Positions 12,543-20,512 of a stretch of DNA of 64,000 bases are shown one piece after another (the stretch's first letter is position 1; each line of letters begins with the position of its first letter). The stretch is from positions 1 through 64,000 of the forward strand of contig NZ_JQKE01000008.1 of the NCBI RefSeq assembly GCF_000745895.1, in the 5' to 3' direction. The position numbers and the translations under genes are program-made. A model generated the notes under the pieces. That model was not told the DNA's origin. It made no database searches and saw nothing but the letters and a program-made list of their open reading frames with translations. Source of the stretch: Stenoxybacter acetivorans DSM 19021. GTDB taxonomy: Bacteria; Pseudomonadota; Gammaproteobacteria; Burkholderiales; Neisseriaceae.

Positions 12543-12727
12543 TGAATCCCCCGCAAATGCCGCTTGGATCGTATCCGCCTGAACCTTGCAAACAAGGCCG
12601 ACAACTTCGGATAACTTTGGGTACATTTGCTGACGCAAACGCGCACACCCATTATCAACACAGCCATCGAAAAAAGCGAACTATTGGTTCAAAGGAATAT
12701 ATATCCTTACAAACACCGCAGGGGAAA
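12543..12727 (-). ncRNA. ssrS: 6S RNA (SsrS), inhibitor of sigma70-RNA polymerase
   Basis: Between zapA and dusC the minus strand encodes no protein but shows the hallmarks of 6S RNA. The 5' end, with CCCCTGCGGTGTTTG, can pair with the 3' end, with GCGGCATTTGCGGGGG, forming the closing stem. The interior has the CCTTTGAACC and CCTTGTTTGCAAGG-type elements around the large central bubble. The roughly 185-nt length and a position immediately after zapA match the conserved zapA-ssrS order in proteobacteria. 6S RNA mimics an open promoter and sequesters the housekeeping holoenzyme in stationary phase. The ends are estimated from the terminal pairing; the 5' end lies within a few bases of the zapA stop. 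Confidence 0.8.
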
Positions 12728-14632: not shown

Positions 14633-15532
14633 TTATTGAGCAACTGAAGCCTTAGCCGCTTCGCCGGTTTGCGCTTGCTCACCCCAAACAGCCGGATATT
14701 TATAGCCCGGAAAACGTTGGTTTGCATAGGCTTTAAAGTCGTCGGAATTATAAGCCTCGGTGATGTCTTTCACCCATTGCGTGTCTTTGTCGGCGGTGCG
14801 AATGGCAGACCAGTTGACATAAGCGTAACTGGGTTCTTGGAACAGCGCATCGGTGAGTTTCATACCGGAACTCGTGGCATAGTTACCGTTTATCACGGCA
14901 AAATCCACATCGGCACGTGAACGCGGCAATTGCGCGGCTTCCAATTCAACGATTTTAATGCCTTTCGGATTTTCGGCAATATCATTTTTAGAAGCCCTAA
15001 GCGGGTCAATATTGTCTTTTAATTTCAGCCAGCCCAATTCATTCATCATCACCAAGGCACGAGCAAAATTAGACGGGTCATTCGGCGCGGAAACGCTGAC
15101 ACCATCTTTTACCTCATTCAAGGAGGTTAATTTTCCGGTGTATAAACCCAAAGGTGCGGTTGGCACTTGGAAAGCCTCGGTAATATTCAATTTGTGTTCG
15201 GCTTTAAAGTTATCCAAATAAGGTTTGTGCTGGAAAACATTGATGTCGATTTCACCGTCTGCCAGAGCCAAATTCGGGCGTACGTAGTCGCTGAATTCAA
15301 TCAGTTTAACGGTATAGCCTTTTTGCTCCAAAGCCGGTTTAATTTGCTCTTTTACCATATCACCGAAATCACCCGCTGTTGTACCAAACACGATTTCGGT
15401 TTTGGCAAGTACTCCAGCTGGGCTGCCTGAAGCAGCAGAAGCAGCATCGGTAGCTTGTTGTTGACCGCCGCAAGCGGTCAAAGTCAATGCCAACGCCGTG
15501 GCGAAAAGGGGTTTAAACCAAGATAATTGCAT
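14633..15532 (-). CDS. metQ: Methionine ABC transporter, substrate-binding lipoprotein MetQ
   Basis: A 299-residue NlpA-family protein that captures L- and D-methionine for MetNI. The signal peptide ends in LTAC, a lipobox with Cys21 lipidated. The family segment TAGDFGDMVKEQIKPALE and the FNVFQHKPYL-like INVFQHKPYLDNF motif identify the family. AGGAG precedes the ATG at good spacing. It is the last gene of metNIQ; a 59-base gap separates it from metI. Neisserial MetQ is also reported at the cell surface, which cannot be judged here. Confidence 0.92.
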   Translation of the reverse strand: MQLSWFKPLFATALALTLTACGGQQQATDAASAASGSPAGVLAKTEIVFGTTAGDFGDMVKEQIKPALEQKGYTVKLIEFSDYVRPNLALADGEIDINVFQHKPYLDNFKAEHKLNITEAFQVPTAPLGLYTGKLTSLNEVKDGVSVSAPNDPSNFARALVMMNELGWLKLKDNIDPLRASKNDIAENPKGIKIVELEAAQLPRSRADVDFAVINGNYATSSGMKLTDALFQEPSYAYVNWSAIRTADKDTQWVKDITEAYNSDDFKAYANQRFPGYKYPAVWGEQAQTGEAAKASVAQ

Positions 15533-15591: not shown

Positions 15592-16278
15592 TCAACGTTT
15601 ATCCAACTTACGGGCAATAAAATTGCCCAGGCTTTGCATCAAAATCACCAACAATGCCAACACCGCCACGATGAAAATGATGACTTCGGTTTGATAGCGA
15701 TAATAGCCGTAACGAATCGCCAAGTCGCCCAAACCGCCGCCGCCGATCATGCCTGCCGCCGCGCTGTAAGACAATAAGCTGATGGACAACACAGTGATAC
15801 TGGACACCATGCCCGAACGTGCTTCATTCAGTAACACCCTGATGATGACGGTAAACGGCGACGCGCCCATGCTGATGGCAGCTTCAATGATGCCGCGCGG
15901 TACTTCGCGTAAGTTTTGCTCTACCAATCGCGCAAAGAAAAACACGCCTGAAACCGAGAGCACCAATGATGCTGCAATGGGACCGATAGCGATGCCAATC
16001 ACCATGCGCGTGAACGGTATCATGGCGATCATCAAAATCACAAACGGAAAAGCACGGATCAGGTTTACGACACCCTCAGCGATGCTGTTAAAGCGCTGGT
16101 TACGATAAAGCTGCTTACTGGCAGTTACATACATATATACGCCCAAAACGGTGCCGAAAATAGTTGCCAGCAATGTGGACAAACCCACCATCACAAAGGT
16201 TTCCCACAAGGCTTGTACAATTTCGCTTTTCATTGAAATGAGATTATTTACGGCTTGAGAAAAATTCGCAGCTGCCAT
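15592..16278 (-). CDS. metI: Methionine ABC transporter permease MetI
   Basis: A 228-residue inner-membrane permease with five hydrophobic segments and the EAA-type loop EAAISMGASPFTVI that contacts the ATPase. The ATG at 16276-16278 has a perfect AGGAGG seven bases upstream, lying inside the end of metN; upstream in-frame codons are discarded for that reason. The metN stop and this start are one base apart, so translation is coupled. Confidence 0.92.
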   Translation of the reverse strand: MAAANFSQAVNNLISMKSEIVQALWETFVMVGLSTLLATIFGTVLGVYMYVTASKQLYRNQRFNSIAEGVVNLIRAFPFVILMIAMIPFTRMVIGIAIGPIAASLVLSVSGVFFFARLVEQNLREVPRGIIEAAISMGASPFTVIIRVLLNEARSGMVSSITVLSISLLSYSAAAGMIGGGGLGDLAIRYGYYRYQTEVIIFIVAVLALLVILMQSLGNFIARKLDKR

Positions 16279-16279
16279 G

Positions 16280-17017
16280 TTAATCCTCCTGCACCAATTC
16301 TTGACCAATGGCGGATTGTGCGTGAATTTGGTTGTCTTTCACCACAATTGTTTCCAAAAGTTTACCTTGATGCAGTAATGCAGTGCGATCACACAATCGG
16401 CGAATCACGCTCATTTCATGGGTAACAATCACAATGGTTACGTTAAAGCGATGATTGATGTCAGCCAAACACGCCAGCACACTGCGCGTGGTGGCAGGAT
16501 CTAAAGCACTCGTTGGCTCGTCTGCCAAAATCACTTTCGGGCTGGGTGCAAGCGCACGGGCAATACCCACCCGCTGTTTTTGTCCGCCCGATAATTGCGC
16601 GGGGTAATGATTCGCGCGATCACATAAACCAACAATATCCAAACATTCAGCAACGCGCTTATCCCGCGCCGCTTTATCCCAGCCAGCCACCGTCAGCGGA
16701 AACGCCACATTGTCTGCCACCGTGCGGTTTGCCAATAAGTTAAATTGCTGAAACACCATACCAATATTCTGCCGAGAACGGCGCAAATCGGCAGCATTCA
16801 AAGCGGTTAGATCTTGCCCGTCCACCGTTACCCGCCCGCTGTCGGGGCGTTCCAATAAATTAATCAGCCTCAGTAAAGTGGATTTACCCGCACCGGAATA
16901 ACCCATCAAGCCAAAAATTTCTCCTGCTTCAACACGCAAACAAAGCGGCTCAACCGCAGTAAACCATGTTTTATCGCGATGTTGGTAGCGTTTAGAAACA
17001 TTATCCAAAACAATCAT
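16280..17017 (-). CDS. metN: Methionine ABC transporter ATP-binding protein MetN
   Basis: A 245-residue ABC ATPase with GYSGAGKST (Walker A), LSGGQKQRVGIARAL (signature), ILADEPTSALDP (Walker B and D-loop) and the switch His in VTHEM. It is shorter than E. coli MetN (about 343 residues) because the C-terminal ACT-like regulatory domain that gives methionine feedback inhibition in E. coli is absent here. Control may therefore rest more on gene expression. Its 135-base leader contains a promoter, a SAM-II-like pseudoknot and a terminator hairpin right before the start codon. Confidence 0.92.
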   Translation of the reverse strand: MIVLDNVSKRYQHRDKTWFTAVEPLCLRVEAGEIFGLMGYSGAGKSTLLRLINLLERPDSGRVTVDGQDLTALNAADLRRSRQNIGMVFQQFNLLANRTVADNVAFPLTVAGWDKAARDKRVAECLDIVGLCDRANHYPAQLSGGQKQRVGIARALAPSPKVILADEPTSALDPATTRSVLACLADINHRFNVTIVIVTHEMSVIRRLCDRTALLHQGKLLETIVVKDNQIHAQSAIGQELVQED

Positions 17018-17031
17018 TATTTATCACTGCT

Positions 17032-17062
17032 ATATAAAAAGCCCATTGTCAATGCAATGGGC
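17032..17062 (-). terminator. Intrinsic terminator inside the metN leader
   Basis: On the minus strand GCCCATTG and CAATGGGC form a 9-bp stem around a short loop, followed by TTTTTATATA. It lies only about 20 bases before the metN ATG and after the promoter at 17160-17188, so it can only act as an attenuator of metNIQ. This is the layout expected for an expression platform. Confidence 0.75.
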
Positions 17063-17098
17063 TGTAAAAAATCAAAGCATGGGGCAAATATACCCCGC

Positions 17099-17145
17099 AC
17101 GCTTTAGCTGTTTTACGCCCGCAAGCTGTATCAAATCGGCGTTTG
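17099..17145 (-). promoter_or_regulatory. SAM-II-like riboswitch aptamer, metNIQ leader
   Basis: On the minus strand the order is ACGCC, GATTTG, five bases, GCTTGC, GGCGT, AAAAC, AGCTAAAGC. ACGCC and GGCGT form P1; CTTGC in the P1 loop pairs with GCTAAAG downstream, giving an H-type pseudoknot. The conserved words GAUUUG, GCUUGC and GCUAAAG in this order and spacing match what I know of the SAM-II (metA-motif) class, which binds S-adenosylmethionine and represses methionine genes. It starts about ten bases after the predicted transcription start and is followed by a second hairpin overlapping the GCTAAAGC strand and then an intrinsic terminator. The identification rests on my memory of the consensus, not on a covariance search. 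Confidence 0.62.
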
Positions 17146-17159
17146 GTTAAATTTCAGTC

Positions 17160-17188
17160 ATTACACCCGAAAATACAAACAAGGTCAA
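17160..17188 (-). promoter_or_regulatory. Sigma70 promoter of metNIQ
   Basis: On the minus strand a TTGACC -35 (17183-17188) and a TGTAAT -10 (17160-17165) are separated by exactly 17 bases. The implied start near 17152 leaves a leader of about 135 nt that begins almost directly with the pseudoknot. Confidence 0.65.
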
Positions 17189-17306: not shown

Positions 17307-18728
17307 TCAAAATGTTTTACTGAAATCCAAATAAAGTTGTTTTTTATCATATTGATAAAAAACATCATTACTGTACACTCTATTATATTGAAAAGTTAAT
17401 TTTGGTGTCAGCCCATGCCATTGCCAGGCTCGGTTCCAAACAGAAGCTGTGGCAAATAAGGAGTTTTCATTTCTACGGATATAAAAAAAATCTTCTTCTT
17501 GATAATGTTTATTCCACCAGCCAAATTGAATTGATGTAGATATTGATTTCGGCCATTCGTTCCCCCAAGCGAAACGCGCACCGTAATAGCGATAGGCTTC
17601 GCTCAAATCCTCCGCGCCGTTTCTGCCTACATCTAAACCCACCAACCAATATTGTTTGGCGGACTGACGATACACAACAGACGTGGATATCGATAAATTT
17701 GTACCGGTTAGAAACGGGCGGTCAATATAAACATCTCGCCCGTATTCCAATGCGCCCAAAGCTTGCCACCGACCACTGATTAGATAAGTGCCTTGAACGC
17801 GCATCCCCAAAGTATGTGAATAAGGCAGTGTGCCAAACCAGCGGTAGCCGTAAAACGGCTGCACTGCCCACTCCTGACGCGCACTTTTGTACACTGGTCC
17901 GAGTGTAAAGCGAGCCTGTACATCGTCATAGTCATGGTTGTCCCAATAAAATTTACCGTAAACATCAGTACCGATACGCCAATACACATGGTCTTTTACA
18001 AGAGTATCTTTTTGTGCATTTACCTGATAACCAATACCGTGCGCAGACTGTGGTTTGGGAAATGTCCAAACTCCGTAATCAGTAGGTAAATAACGCTGTT
18101 TGGGCGCATTATTGACGTTGTTGTCAGACAAATAACGAACACTGGCATTAATTGACCATTCTGTTTGTTTGGCTAAAATTTCTTCATATTGCTTAACTGC
18201 ATCTGCCCCAAGTAAAGGCAAATCAGGTGCTGCTTTAATTTTGTTAAACTGATCTTGGGCGGCTTGCAATTGCCCGTTGGTAAATAAAGCCTCAGCCAAA
18301 GCCAAACGAGTTGGCGTTAAATCAGGGTTTTCAGCAAGTATTTTCCGATAATAGGCAATTGCATCTGCGTAGCGATTTTCTGCTTTTGCCAACAGTGCTT
18401 GTGCATACCACACCAACAGCACATCATGATTTTCCTGAGCTTGATATGGTGGCAGCAACATTTGTACAGCGGCAATATTTTGAGTGGCAACAGATGAATC
18501 CAAGGCATGTTGCAACAACAGCGGATTTTTTTGTAACTCCTCCAAACTAATATTCACCTCTTTTTCCTCATCATCTCCCGTTTCAGCAGCAGGAAACAAT
18601 TCGGATTGTTGCGGCGCGGTGATATTAAGATTGTTTTGTGGTAAGGCAGTATTTGGCAGTGATTCACCCGATGCCTTGCCAAAACCAAATACAACCAAAA
18701 ATGACAAAGTACAATAAGGAAATTTCAT
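17307..18728 (-). CDS. Surface lipoprotein assembly modifier (Slam)
   Basis: A 473-residue outer-membrane protein that moves specific lipoproteins to the cell surface in Neisseria and relatives. A signal peptide covers about residues 1-20. An N-terminal periplasmic domain with TPR-like helices (about 60-190, including the YADAIAYYRKILAENPDLTPTRLALAEALF repeat region) is followed by a barrel of about 270 residues (DUF560 type) rich in alternating aromatic strands and ending in Phe, as outer-membrane barrels do. It lies directly downstream of two TbpB-like lipoprotein genes on the same strand, the arrangement known for Slam and its substrates. It most likely exports those two. Slam1 versus Slam2 class cannot be assigned by eye. 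Confidence 0.88.
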   Translation of the reverse strand: MKFPYCTLSFLVVFGFGKASGESLPNTALPQNNLNITAPQQSELFPAAETGDDEEKEVNISLEELQKNPLLLQHALDSSVATQNIAAVQMLLPPYQAQENHDVLLVWYAQALLAKAENRYADAIAYYRKILAENPDLTPTRLALAEALFTNGQLQAAQDQFNKIKAAPDLPLLGADAVKQYEEILAKQTEWSINASVRYLSDNNVNNAPKQRYLPTDYGVWTFPKPQSAHGIGYQVNAQKDTLVKDHVYWRIGTDVYGKFYWDNHDYDDVQARFTLGPVYKSARQEWAVQPFYGYRWFGTLPYSHTLGMRVQGTYLISGRWQALGALEYGRDVYIDRPFLTGTNLSISTSVVYRQSAKQYWLVGLDVGRNGAEDLSEAYRYYGARFAWGNEWPKSISTSIQFGWWNKHYQEEDFFYIRRNENSLFATASVWNRAWQWHGLTPKLTFQYNRVYSNDVFYQYDKKQLYLDFSKTF

Positions 18729-18751
18729 ACGCTACATTCTTTACAGACTAA

Positions 18752-18784
18752 AATCCCTAAGTTCCATTAAGGACCTTAGGGATT
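18752..18784 (-). terminator. Hairpin between the lipoprotein genes and the Slam gene
   Basis: On the minus strand AATCCCTAAG and CTTAGGGATT pair around a 13-base loop and are followed by TTAG, a poor T-run. It may attenuate rather than stop transcription, giving more lipoprotein than Slam transcript. Confidence 0.5.
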
Positions 18785-18808
18785 AAAGCGAGGATTATTT
18801 CTCTGAAC

Positions 18809-19579
18809 TTATTGCTTTTTAGCACCAAACGCACCGCCGAAACCTTCATTGGTATTAACAAAAGTACCCGCTATTTCATTGGCGTTGGGACCAAAAAAAT
18901 CTCCTGCCGTAGTAGTCCCTTTCGATGAATTGCCGTAAAACTGATGGCCATTAATAACACCGCTAAGTTCAATGTTGTCAGCAGGTTTTTTATTGATATC
19001 AACTATATTGGCAATAGTACCGGATATGGCTTTCTTACCAAAATCCACCGTGAAGTTAGCGGTTGCATCAGCTGTGTCGTAATTCACACCCTTGACATAG
19101 GCTATACCTGCATATTTGGCAGTACCGCTGATGGGCATATTTTTATCAGGAGTACCTTCTCCTTGTGCGTAAAGATAAGTGCCCTTGCCACCAAGATAGG
19201 CACCATACCGCGCATAACTAAGATTCATGCCGACAACCACATCATTTGCGATCACAAATTTTCCGGTACTGATTCCCGGGTAAACCAATTGAATGCGCTT
19301 ACCGTCCACCACCAAAATATCTTTATTGGTATTGTCGGGAGATTCCACTCCGGTGCCTATGCGTCCGCCGCTGCCCGGTGAAGTAAAACTGGCATAACTA
19401 CCAGCCATTCTTATGGGACTCGAACCGCCACCTGAATCACCTGAATTAGAGCCGCCGCCTGTACCCGGGCTGTTTGATGAGGACGTATTGGGCGAGGAAC
19501 TGCCACCACCGCCGCCACCGCAAGCCGTTAAGACAAATGCAACTATCAATAAAGTTGCCATTGCTTTTGTATTGTTCAT
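18809..19579 (-). CDS. Slam-type surface lipoprotein, TbpB-like barrel (copy 2)
   Basis: A 256-residue predicted lipoprotein. The signal peptide ends in LTAC with Cys near residue 20, followed by a poly-Gly run and a Ser/Gly/Asn linker, as in neisserial surface lipoproteins. The C-terminal part, with TVDFGKKAISG, the ANFTVDF strand and a GAFGAKKQ end, is the eight-stranded barrel type found in TbpB, fHbp and HpuA. It is nearly identical to the upstream copy but shorter by seven residues near position 172 and divergent around residues 45-75. GGAGGG precedes the ATG at 19577-19579. Ligand unknown; iron-carrier or complement-factor binding are only analogies. Confidence 0.82.
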   Translation of the reverse strand: MNNTKAMATLLIVAFVLTACGGGGGGSSSPNTSSSNSPGTGGGSNSGDSGGGSSPIRMAGSYASFTSPGSGGRIGTGVESPDNTNKDILVVDGKRIQLVYPGISTGKFVIANDVVVGMNLSYARYGAYLGGKGTYLYAQGEGTPDKNMPISGTAKYAGIAYVKGVNYDTADATANFTVDFGKKAISGTIANIVDINKKPADNIELSGVINGHQFYGNSSKGTTTAGDFFGPNANEIAGTFVNTNEGFGGAFGAKKQ

Positions 19580-19638
19580 TGAAAAATCCCTCCATAAAGC
19601 GCAGAAAAACACACAAATCGAAAAAATTAAAGCATTAC

Positions 19639-20421
19639 TTATTGCTTTTTAGCACCAAACGCGCCGCCGAAACCTGCACCCATATTAACAAAAGTACCTG
19701 CTATTTCATCGGCGTTGGGACCGAAAAAATCCCCTTCCATATGGGTACCACTCAATGAACGACCATAAAATTGATGACCATTGATAACACCACTAAGTTC
19801 AATGTTATTAGCAGGTTTTTTATTAATATCAACTATATTGGCAATAGCACCGGATATGGCTTTTTTACCAAAATCCACCGTGAAGTTAGCGGTTGCATCA
19901 GCTGTATTGTACTTCACACCACTCTCCTGGTAATTTACACCCTTGACATAGGCTATACCTGCATATTTGGCAGTACCGCTGATGGGCATATTTTTATCGG
20001 GAGTACCTGTTCCTTGTGCGTAAAGATAAATATCCTTACCGCCAAGATAGGCACCATACCGCGCATAACTAAGATTCATGCCGACAACCACATCATTTGC
20101 GATCACAAATTTTCCGGCACTGATTCCCGGGTAAACCAATTGAATACGTTTACCGTCCACCACCAAAACATCTTTATTTTTATTGTCGAAAGATTCCACC
20201 AAACGACCTATTTCTGCGCCGCCACCCGACGAGTTAAAGCTGGCATAACTACCGTCCAATCTTCCGGCAATTGAACCATCCGAACCACTCGAATTAGAAC
20301 CGCCGCCTGTACCTGGGCTGTTTGATGAGGACGTATTGGGCGAGGAACTGCCACCGCCGCCGCAAGCCGTTAAGGCAAATGCAACCATCAATAAAGTTGC
20401 CATTGCTTTTGTATTGTTCAT
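19639..20421 (-). CDS. Slam-type surface lipoprotein, TbpB-like barrel (copy 1)
   Basis: A 260-residue paralog of the next gene and the first of this transcription unit. It has the same signal peptide and lipobox LTAC, a slightly shorter Gly run, and a TbpB-like barrel ending in GAFGAKKQ. Differences cluster in two places: a variable stretch after the linker (RLDGSYASF) and a seven-residue insertion with QESGVKY, suggesting surface-loop diversification. GGAGGGG-like pairing sequence lies before the ATG at 20419-20421. A promoter candidate and an 11-copy heptanucleotide repeat lie upstream, hinting at variable expression. Dependence on the downstream Slam gene is inferred from context. Confidence 0.82.
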   Translation of the reverse strand: MNNTKAMATLLMVAFALTACGGGGSSSPNTSSSNSPGTGGGSNSSGSDGSIAGRLDGSYASFNSSGGGAEIGRLVESFDNKNKDVLVVDGKRIQLVYPGISAGKFVIANDVVVGMNLSYARYGAYLGGKDIYLYAQGTGTPDKNMPISGTAKYAGIAYVKGVNYQESGVKYNTADATANFTVDFGKKAISGAIANIVDINKKPANNIELSGVINGHQFYGRSLSGTHMEGDFFGPNADEIAGTFVNMGAGFGGAFGAKKQ

Positions 20422-20512
20422 TGAAAAACCCCTCCATAAAGTACAGAAAAACACACAAATCAAAAAAATTAAAGCATTACCCACCCATCAATTCAAACGA
20501 CAATATTTTTCA

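Follow-up and report, generated by a model that had tools for sequence, protein, structure and literature searches.

The metNIQ genes of Stenoxybacter acetivorans DSM 19021 raise the question of how methionine import is controlled in the Neisseriaceae, and what the leader ahead of these genes senses. They lie on the minus strand of the 64 kb stretch of DNA that was analysed as a whole (hereafter the window). An earlier note had read their leader as a transcription-attenuating SAM-II switch on a methionine importer. Our results favour that reading: a covariance model trained outside the family finds the site, its P1 helix covaries, a model of beta- and gammaproteobacterial sequences detects alphaproteobacterial SAM-II RNAs, and terminator and antiterminator provide a logic for control. 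We regard the leader, with a probability of roughly 85%, as a SAM-II-class riboswitch of the transcriptional OFF type, one that very probably halts transcription when S-adenosylmethionine (SAM) is abundant.

The metNIQ Genes and Their Leader

The genes and the candidate promoter are located as follows.

14633 to 15532, minus strand: metQ, methionine-binding lipoprotein (best-scoring name)
15592 to 16308, minus strand: metI, methionine importer permease (best-scoring name; open reading frame as listed, longest start)
16280 to 17017, minus strand: metN, methionine importer ATPase, 245 aa (best-scoring name; ATG at 17017)
17160 to 17188, minus strand: plausible sigma-70 promoter, TTGACC-17-TGTAAT (by eye)
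17188 to 17183, minus strand: its -35 element, TTGACC, followed by a 17-nt spacer
17165 to 17160, minus strand: its -10 element, TGTAAT

As had been claimed, MetN is without a regulatory C-terminal domain: Pfam detected the ATPase domain and no such regulatory domain, and in TIGR02314, a model of 343 positions, the protein covers 1-242. The promoter fared less well. Both hexamers and the 17-nt spacer are there, matching the consensus at 10 of 12 bases (by eye), but the promoter scan, whose rule requires A as the second base of the -10 element, does not list it, and hence it is only plausible. Transcription would be expected to start about 7 nt 3' of it, a few bases 5' of the aptamer. On the minus strand, the leader runs through the aptamer, a hairpin overlapping the last aptamer strand, a T-run, a terminator and the metN ATG, and its fold is better than those of shuffled sequences (z -3.15).

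The surroundings hold other features. Just 5' of the leader (17307-20484, minus strand) are a gene for Slam-type surface lipoprotein assembly and, in tandem, two TbpB/fHbp-like lipoprotein genes, and a 6S RNA (RF00013, 63.7 bits) occupies 12544-12727 on the minus strand.

A SAM-II-Like Aptamer Ahead of metN

The minus strand of the leader reads ACGCC-GATTTG-N5-GCTTGC-G-GGCGT-N6-GCTAAAGC, with the following parts.

17101 to 17142, minus strand: SAM-II-like aptamer, whole (words, covariance models, P1 covariation)
17138 to 17142, minus strand: P1 5' strand, ACGCC (P1 covariation)
17132 to 17137, minus strand: GATTTG, third strand predicted to lie in the major groove and line the SAM site (analogy with SAM-II and SAM-V structures; PMC6061858)
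17121 to 17126, minus strand: GCTTGC, P2 5' strand
17115 to 17119, minus strand: P1 3' strand, GGCGT (P1 covariation)
17101 to 17108, minus strand: GCTAAAGC, P2 3' strand (its U and AAA correspond to SAM-contacting residues of SAM-II and SAM-V)

All the words named in the earlier note (ACGCC, GATTTG, GCTTGC, GGCGT and GCTAAAGC) are in place. The 64 kb contain a single instance of the pattern, and 100 dinucleotide-preserving shuffles gave no instance at all. The spacing given for them was right for the five nucleotides between GATTTG and GCTTGC (ATACA), but the linker from P1 to the GCTAAAGC strand has six (AAAACA), not five. When SAM contacts were taken from the SAM-II and SAM-V structures (PMC6061858), all corresponding nucleotides were found to be kept, GAUUUG, GCUUGC and GCUAAAG being the RF00521 consensus, and we infer that SAM is the ligand.

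Pairing in P1 has comparative support. Over 41 diverse sequences 98.5% of its pairs are kept, both-sided changes (GC to AU, CG to UA) occur in four of the five pairs, and the covariation score was reached by none of 500 shuffles; sliding the P1 registers yielded no both-sided changes. One row of alignment A2, from the tandem locus L156, is two bases short and out of register, and the unpaired cells that it adds work against this result. Among 23 metN-type sequences, the outermost counted C-G pair has become U-A seven times with no broken cell. P2 is complementary in all sequences with invariant pairs, which the search words fix in part; GATTTG, likewise, is invariant in alignments A1 and A2 by selection. 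The covariation check suggested for both helices thus succeeded for P1 but not for P2, whose core pairs never vary in the 41- and 23-sequence alignments, and P2 appears to be backed by the identity of its words, not by covariation. The extended P2a helix is missing, nothing complementary being seen by eye past GCTT/AAGC.

Covariance-Model Searches and Homology

Standard annotation overlooks this element. Rfam at the gathering threshold reports nothing at the leader site. Run on the leader alone, RF00521 (SAM-II) aligns over its whole model with 21.6 bits against a cut-off of 36, which is a detection threshold and not a biochemical trait; in a loose search over the organism's own genome it gave weak matches only and missed the window site. 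SAM-V (RF01826) had no match in the Rfam scan of the leader. Model R3, a covariance model made from 26 sequences without any Neisseriaceae, picked out exactly the aptamer site in the window (57.9 bits, E 7.6e-15; runner-up 14.5 bits). The Rfam check proposed earlier therefore came out divided, RF00521 remaining sub-threshold and SAM-V unmatched while R3 located the site. The earlier note had also tied its claim to a significant covariance match and to conservation of P1 and P2; such a match exists at the E value of R3, and P1 covaries, so the claim withstood its own test.

Further support comes from model R2, which was built from beta- and gammaproteobacterial sequences and run over 398 genomes of the phylum. 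Its matches include alphaproteobacterial genomes, and all ten loci fetched with their flanks, which had been picked as alphaproteobacterial-looking, are RF00521 at 60-86 bits; by eye, they precede metA- and metZ-like genes. RF00521 itself rises above its cut-off in some beta- and gammaproteobacterial loci (36.6, 38.1, 39.5 and 44.8 bits). Because the model built from beta- and gammaproteobacterial sequences detects alphaproteobacterial SAM-II RNAs, we assign the metN element to the same aptamer class as canonical SAM-II, reciprocal profile detection pointing to common descent, and the metN-type and RF00521 classes shade into each other.

Distribution and Downstream Genes

We searched for the exact-word pattern GATTTG-N-GCTTGC-N-GCTAAAG, with the reversed pattern as control. 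Of 83 Neisseriaceae genomes, 41 carry it, always as a single copy, and they span 6 of 12 genera (reversed control, 0). The metN-type covariance model adds four genomes, three whose variant tail reads GCTAAG and one in which a long insertion separates P1 and P2; with 45 of the 83 genomes carrying an element, the leader is not the isolated case that it had seemed. MetN was the next gene in all 30 Neisseriaceae loci read. Carriers include Neisseria gonorrhoeae, N. sicca, N. elongata, N. polysaccharea, Bergeriella denitrificans, a Conchiformibius bin, an Eikenella bin and Snodgrassella sp. CFCC 13594, and beyond the family the element accompanies metN in Aquitalea, Vogesella, Craterilacuibacter, Paludibacterium and Crenobacter. 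Burkholderiales show the pattern in 204 of 399 genomes, often twice. Over the whole set the downstream genes are metN, metX, metZ and its relatives, metA, metQ and metH, all of them methionine genes. Since metQ-like genes are found in 76 of the 83 Neisseriaceae, several lineages own importer genes without the element, among them most members of genus g11.

Some matches were set aside: those of model R1 below 27 bits in Neisseria genomes as noise (mostly inside thiC-like and phosphoenolpyruvate carboxykinase-like coding genes, by eye), and the pattern matches L123 and L140, being without P1, as chance. Several elements depart from the usual form. In N. elongata (L083, L285), an insert of about 100 nt separates P1 from the GCTAAAGCG strand of the metN element. 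Three Neisseria bins (L282, L283, L284) have metN elements in which GCTAAG stands for GCTAAAG, so that the SAM site lacks one A, and these may be decaying or altered. In the gammaproteobacterium Cocleimonas (L110, element at 112 on the minus strand), metA is preceded by a SAM-II-like element that contains a long insertion.

Terminator, Antiterminator and Proposed Switching

The leader holds a set of competing strands.

17073 to 17106, minus strand: anti-P2 hairpin, TAAAGCGT..GGGGTA/TGCCCC..ATGCTTTG, which excludes P2
17111 to 17120, minus strand: antiterminator 5' strand, GGGCGTAAAA (P1 3' strand and linker)
17059 to 17069, minus strand: antiterminator 3' strand, TTTTAC-A-GCCC, which shares bases with the 5' arm of the terminator
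17036 to 17063, minus strand: intrinsic terminator, AGCCCATTG-CATTGA-CAATGGGCT and T-run (terminator scan)

The overlapping hairpin (17106-17073) followed by an intrinsic terminator ahead of metN, as noticed earlier, is borne out; the terminator hairpin (17063-17040) has nine pairs and lies 22 nt before the metN ATG. GCCC is present in the terminator 5' arm of 53 of 55 metN leaders (the window being represented by its scan-listed terminator, 17063-17040), compared with 25 of 1577 terminator-like hairpins (1.6%) elsewhere in the same DNA. This GCCC is complementary to an invariant GGGC that overlaps the P1 3' strand.

For the antiterminator, each leader was folded as if polymerase had just made the terminator 5' arm, and in 49 of 49 distinct leaders that arm pairs with the aptamer stretch over at least 4 bp. 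The window has a ten-pair helix of GGGCGUAAAA with UUUUAC-a-GCCC that encloses the anti-P2 hairpin, with a z of -3.9 against spacer shuffles; the mean over all leaders is a modest -1.5, and outside the GCCC/GGGC core the antiterminator differs between lineages. In metX leaders another competitor is seen, for instance GCUAAAGACGA with UCGUUUUUAGC (L132, by eye). Full-length fold energies are -38.7 kcal/mol with the terminator and -36.2 kcal/mol with the antiterminator, rough values from programs that ignore the pseudoknot; as the two are nearly equal, a bound ligand could tip the balance.

These features suggest a route for control. At low SAM, the P2 3' strand (GCUAAAGC) would be sequestered in the downstream hairpin while GGGCGUAAAA, comprising the P1 3' strand and linker, would pair with UUUUAC-a-GCCC and so capture the terminator 5' arm, letting polymerase enter metNIQ for methionine import. 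At high SAM, the ligand would bind the predicted H-type pseudoknot of P1 and P2, both competing strands would be occupied, and the GCCCAUUG/CAAUGGGC terminator would form, ending transcription before metN. The metN leaders would thereby present a clear antiterminator design, with the terminator captured by the P1 strand of the aptamer itself.

Other Readings of the Leader

The aptamer might keep this fold and sense SAH, methionine or decarboxylated SAM instead, its short linker and missing P2a then reflecting altered specificity. The metN-type linker is shorter than those of the metX and metZ types and the Rfam score is low, but every position equivalent to a SAM contact in SAM-II and SAM-V is unchanged, and the U:A.U sulfonium site of those structures disfavours SAH, so we consider another ligand unlikely. 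We find it harder still to credit an ON switch, in which hairpin 17106-17073 with GATTTTTT would act as the terminator, SAM-stabilised P2 would block it, and SAM would raise metN. That hairpin overlaps P2, precedes a T-run and is the best in the window in the leader-terminator search; it is, however, absent from the terminator scan listing, relatives keep the second terminator with its GCCC arm and not this hairpin, and more import at high SAM would make little physiological sense.

The opposite strand invites a different question, whether the functional product is a plus-strand small RNA of the RF02424 (Bp2_287) type. This family goes back to a Burkholderia sRNA candidate near metX/metZ, Bp2_Cand287_SIPHT, which was reported in 2012 and seen by RT-PCR; the authors' own proposal was a cis element of methionine genes (PMC3521395). 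RF02424 scores 23.6 bits on the plus strand of the leader, well short of its cut-off of 70. In Burkholderia-like genomes (L120, L122) it reaches 203.9 bits and runs antisense to metZ, to the aptamer words and to the terminator. Reverse-complemented, its consensus gives a SAM-II-like aptamer with terminator; the family is annotated as an sRNA on the other strand, and this strand assignment is probably wrong. In the window, too, the T-run and the direction of the genes agree with the minus strand, and a plus-strand product seems very improbable. Just as little can be said for a leader-peptide or protein-dependent attenuator with no riboswitch: leader length and terminator would suit one, but the one frame translated holds no methionine-rich reading frame, and conservation tracks SAM-II words and P1 pairing, not codons. 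An OFF switch of the SAM-II class thus accounts best for the leader.

Altered-Pocket Relatives Before metK

Model R2 also detects elements in which GAGTTA replaces GATTTG before metK. Many Burkholderiales families have the motif GAGUUA..A[AC]UUGC..GCUAAAG 5' of metK (L291-L316, L264-L266, L290). The GAGTTA pattern was present in 53 of 300 Burkholderiales genomes; 26 of the 30 loci read were upstream of metK, and the other four were of a tandem type before a small unknown protein. In the six metK loci scanned at E 0.1, neither RF00521 nor RF02424 matched. P1 of the metK element covaries, its eight distinct helices retaining every pair (against a mean of 0.83 and a maximum of 0.975 in shuffles), a result favoured by the preselection of helices for at least 4 pairs. 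By analogy, the U replaced by G in GAGUUA would be the one that touches the adenine-binding U, the partner of the SAM adenine. These relatives offer a ready case of pocket change when the target is the synthetase of the riboswitch's own ligand.

Tandem SAM-II RNAs are known (PMC9481103). At several loci (L317-L320, L045, L052, L068, L087, L119), GAUUUG and GAGUUA-like elements stand in tandem before a conserved small protein that starts with MYDC. It has about 100 aa and no Pfam or NCBIfam match, and in several loci a MATE-like transporter gene is next (by eye).

Rather tentatively, and at somewhat less than even odds, we suggest that a large SAM-II-type regulon has escaped annotation in beta- and gammaproteobacteria, with GAUUUG aptamers on metNIQ, metQ, metA, metH, metX and metZ and a distinct GAGUUA...ACUUGC...GCUAAAG class mostly on metK, possibly tuning affinity or ligand.

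Comparison With Known Systems

SAM-II in its Rfam form (RF00521, SAM_alpha) shares with the metN element the order GATTTG, GCTTGC, GCTAAAG, the P1 helix, a metabolic context and a 3' terminator. The metN element differs in falling below the Rfam cut-off, in its metNIQ target and in a host that is not alphaproteobacterial; its linker is about 6 nt against about 12 nt in RF00521, and it is without the stable P2a (about 5 bp) found in 60% of RF00521 members. P2a is also short in the crystallised metX SAM-II and hence not strictly defining (PMC6061858). A 2009 paper already gave SAM-II as occurring in alpha-, beta- and gammaproteobacteria (PMC2704228). SAM-V (RF01826) has a related pseudoknot and SAM site and a short or missing P2a, but possesses a P3 stem-loop and acts on translation, whereas the window leader has no P3 and carries a terminator.

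The closest precedent is the metXZ RNA element of betaproteobacteria, described by Leyn et al. (2014) as a novel element distinct from SAM_alpha and confined to metX and metZ, with conserved blocks, a pseudoknot and downstream terminators in methionine leaders; pairing of the blocks with the terminator was a speculation there (PMC4239095). Conserved pseudoknot blocks followed by a terminator in betaproteobacterial methionine leaders are common to both, but that element precedes metX or metZ, while the window element precedes metN and its relatives precede metX and metZ. From taxon, gene and the layout given there, we infer that the two are the same element. Close relatives had in this way been reported earlier, as the metXZ element, though not under the name SAM-II (PMC4239095).

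A SAM-sensing leader is known from the same family in the SAM-I-IV element (RF01725) before gonococcal metK, but it has an unrelated fold and another gene; we found it upstream of N. gonorrhoeae metK at 42.9 bits (L321), giving the gonococcus two unrelated SAM-type leaders. The gonococcal SAM riboswitch of PMC5399841, considered as prior art, is this SAM-I-IV element and was rejected.

Our search of the open literature, subscription literature lying outside it, found no description of SAM-II on metN or in Neisseriaceae. The 2014 survey states that betaproteobacterial metNIQ is without a known regulator (PMC4239095); the genes of Neisseriaceae and Chromobacteriaceae, gonococcus included, would now gain the one left missing there. 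SAM-II, the metXZ element and RF02424, three separate records, would be joined as one class. Within it, the metN element is a divergent SAM-II-type switch and not an RF00521 entry, the target and the family being new but not the principle; what is new is metNIQ as a target in Neisseriaceae and Chromobacteriaceae, together with the GGGC/GCCC expression platform.
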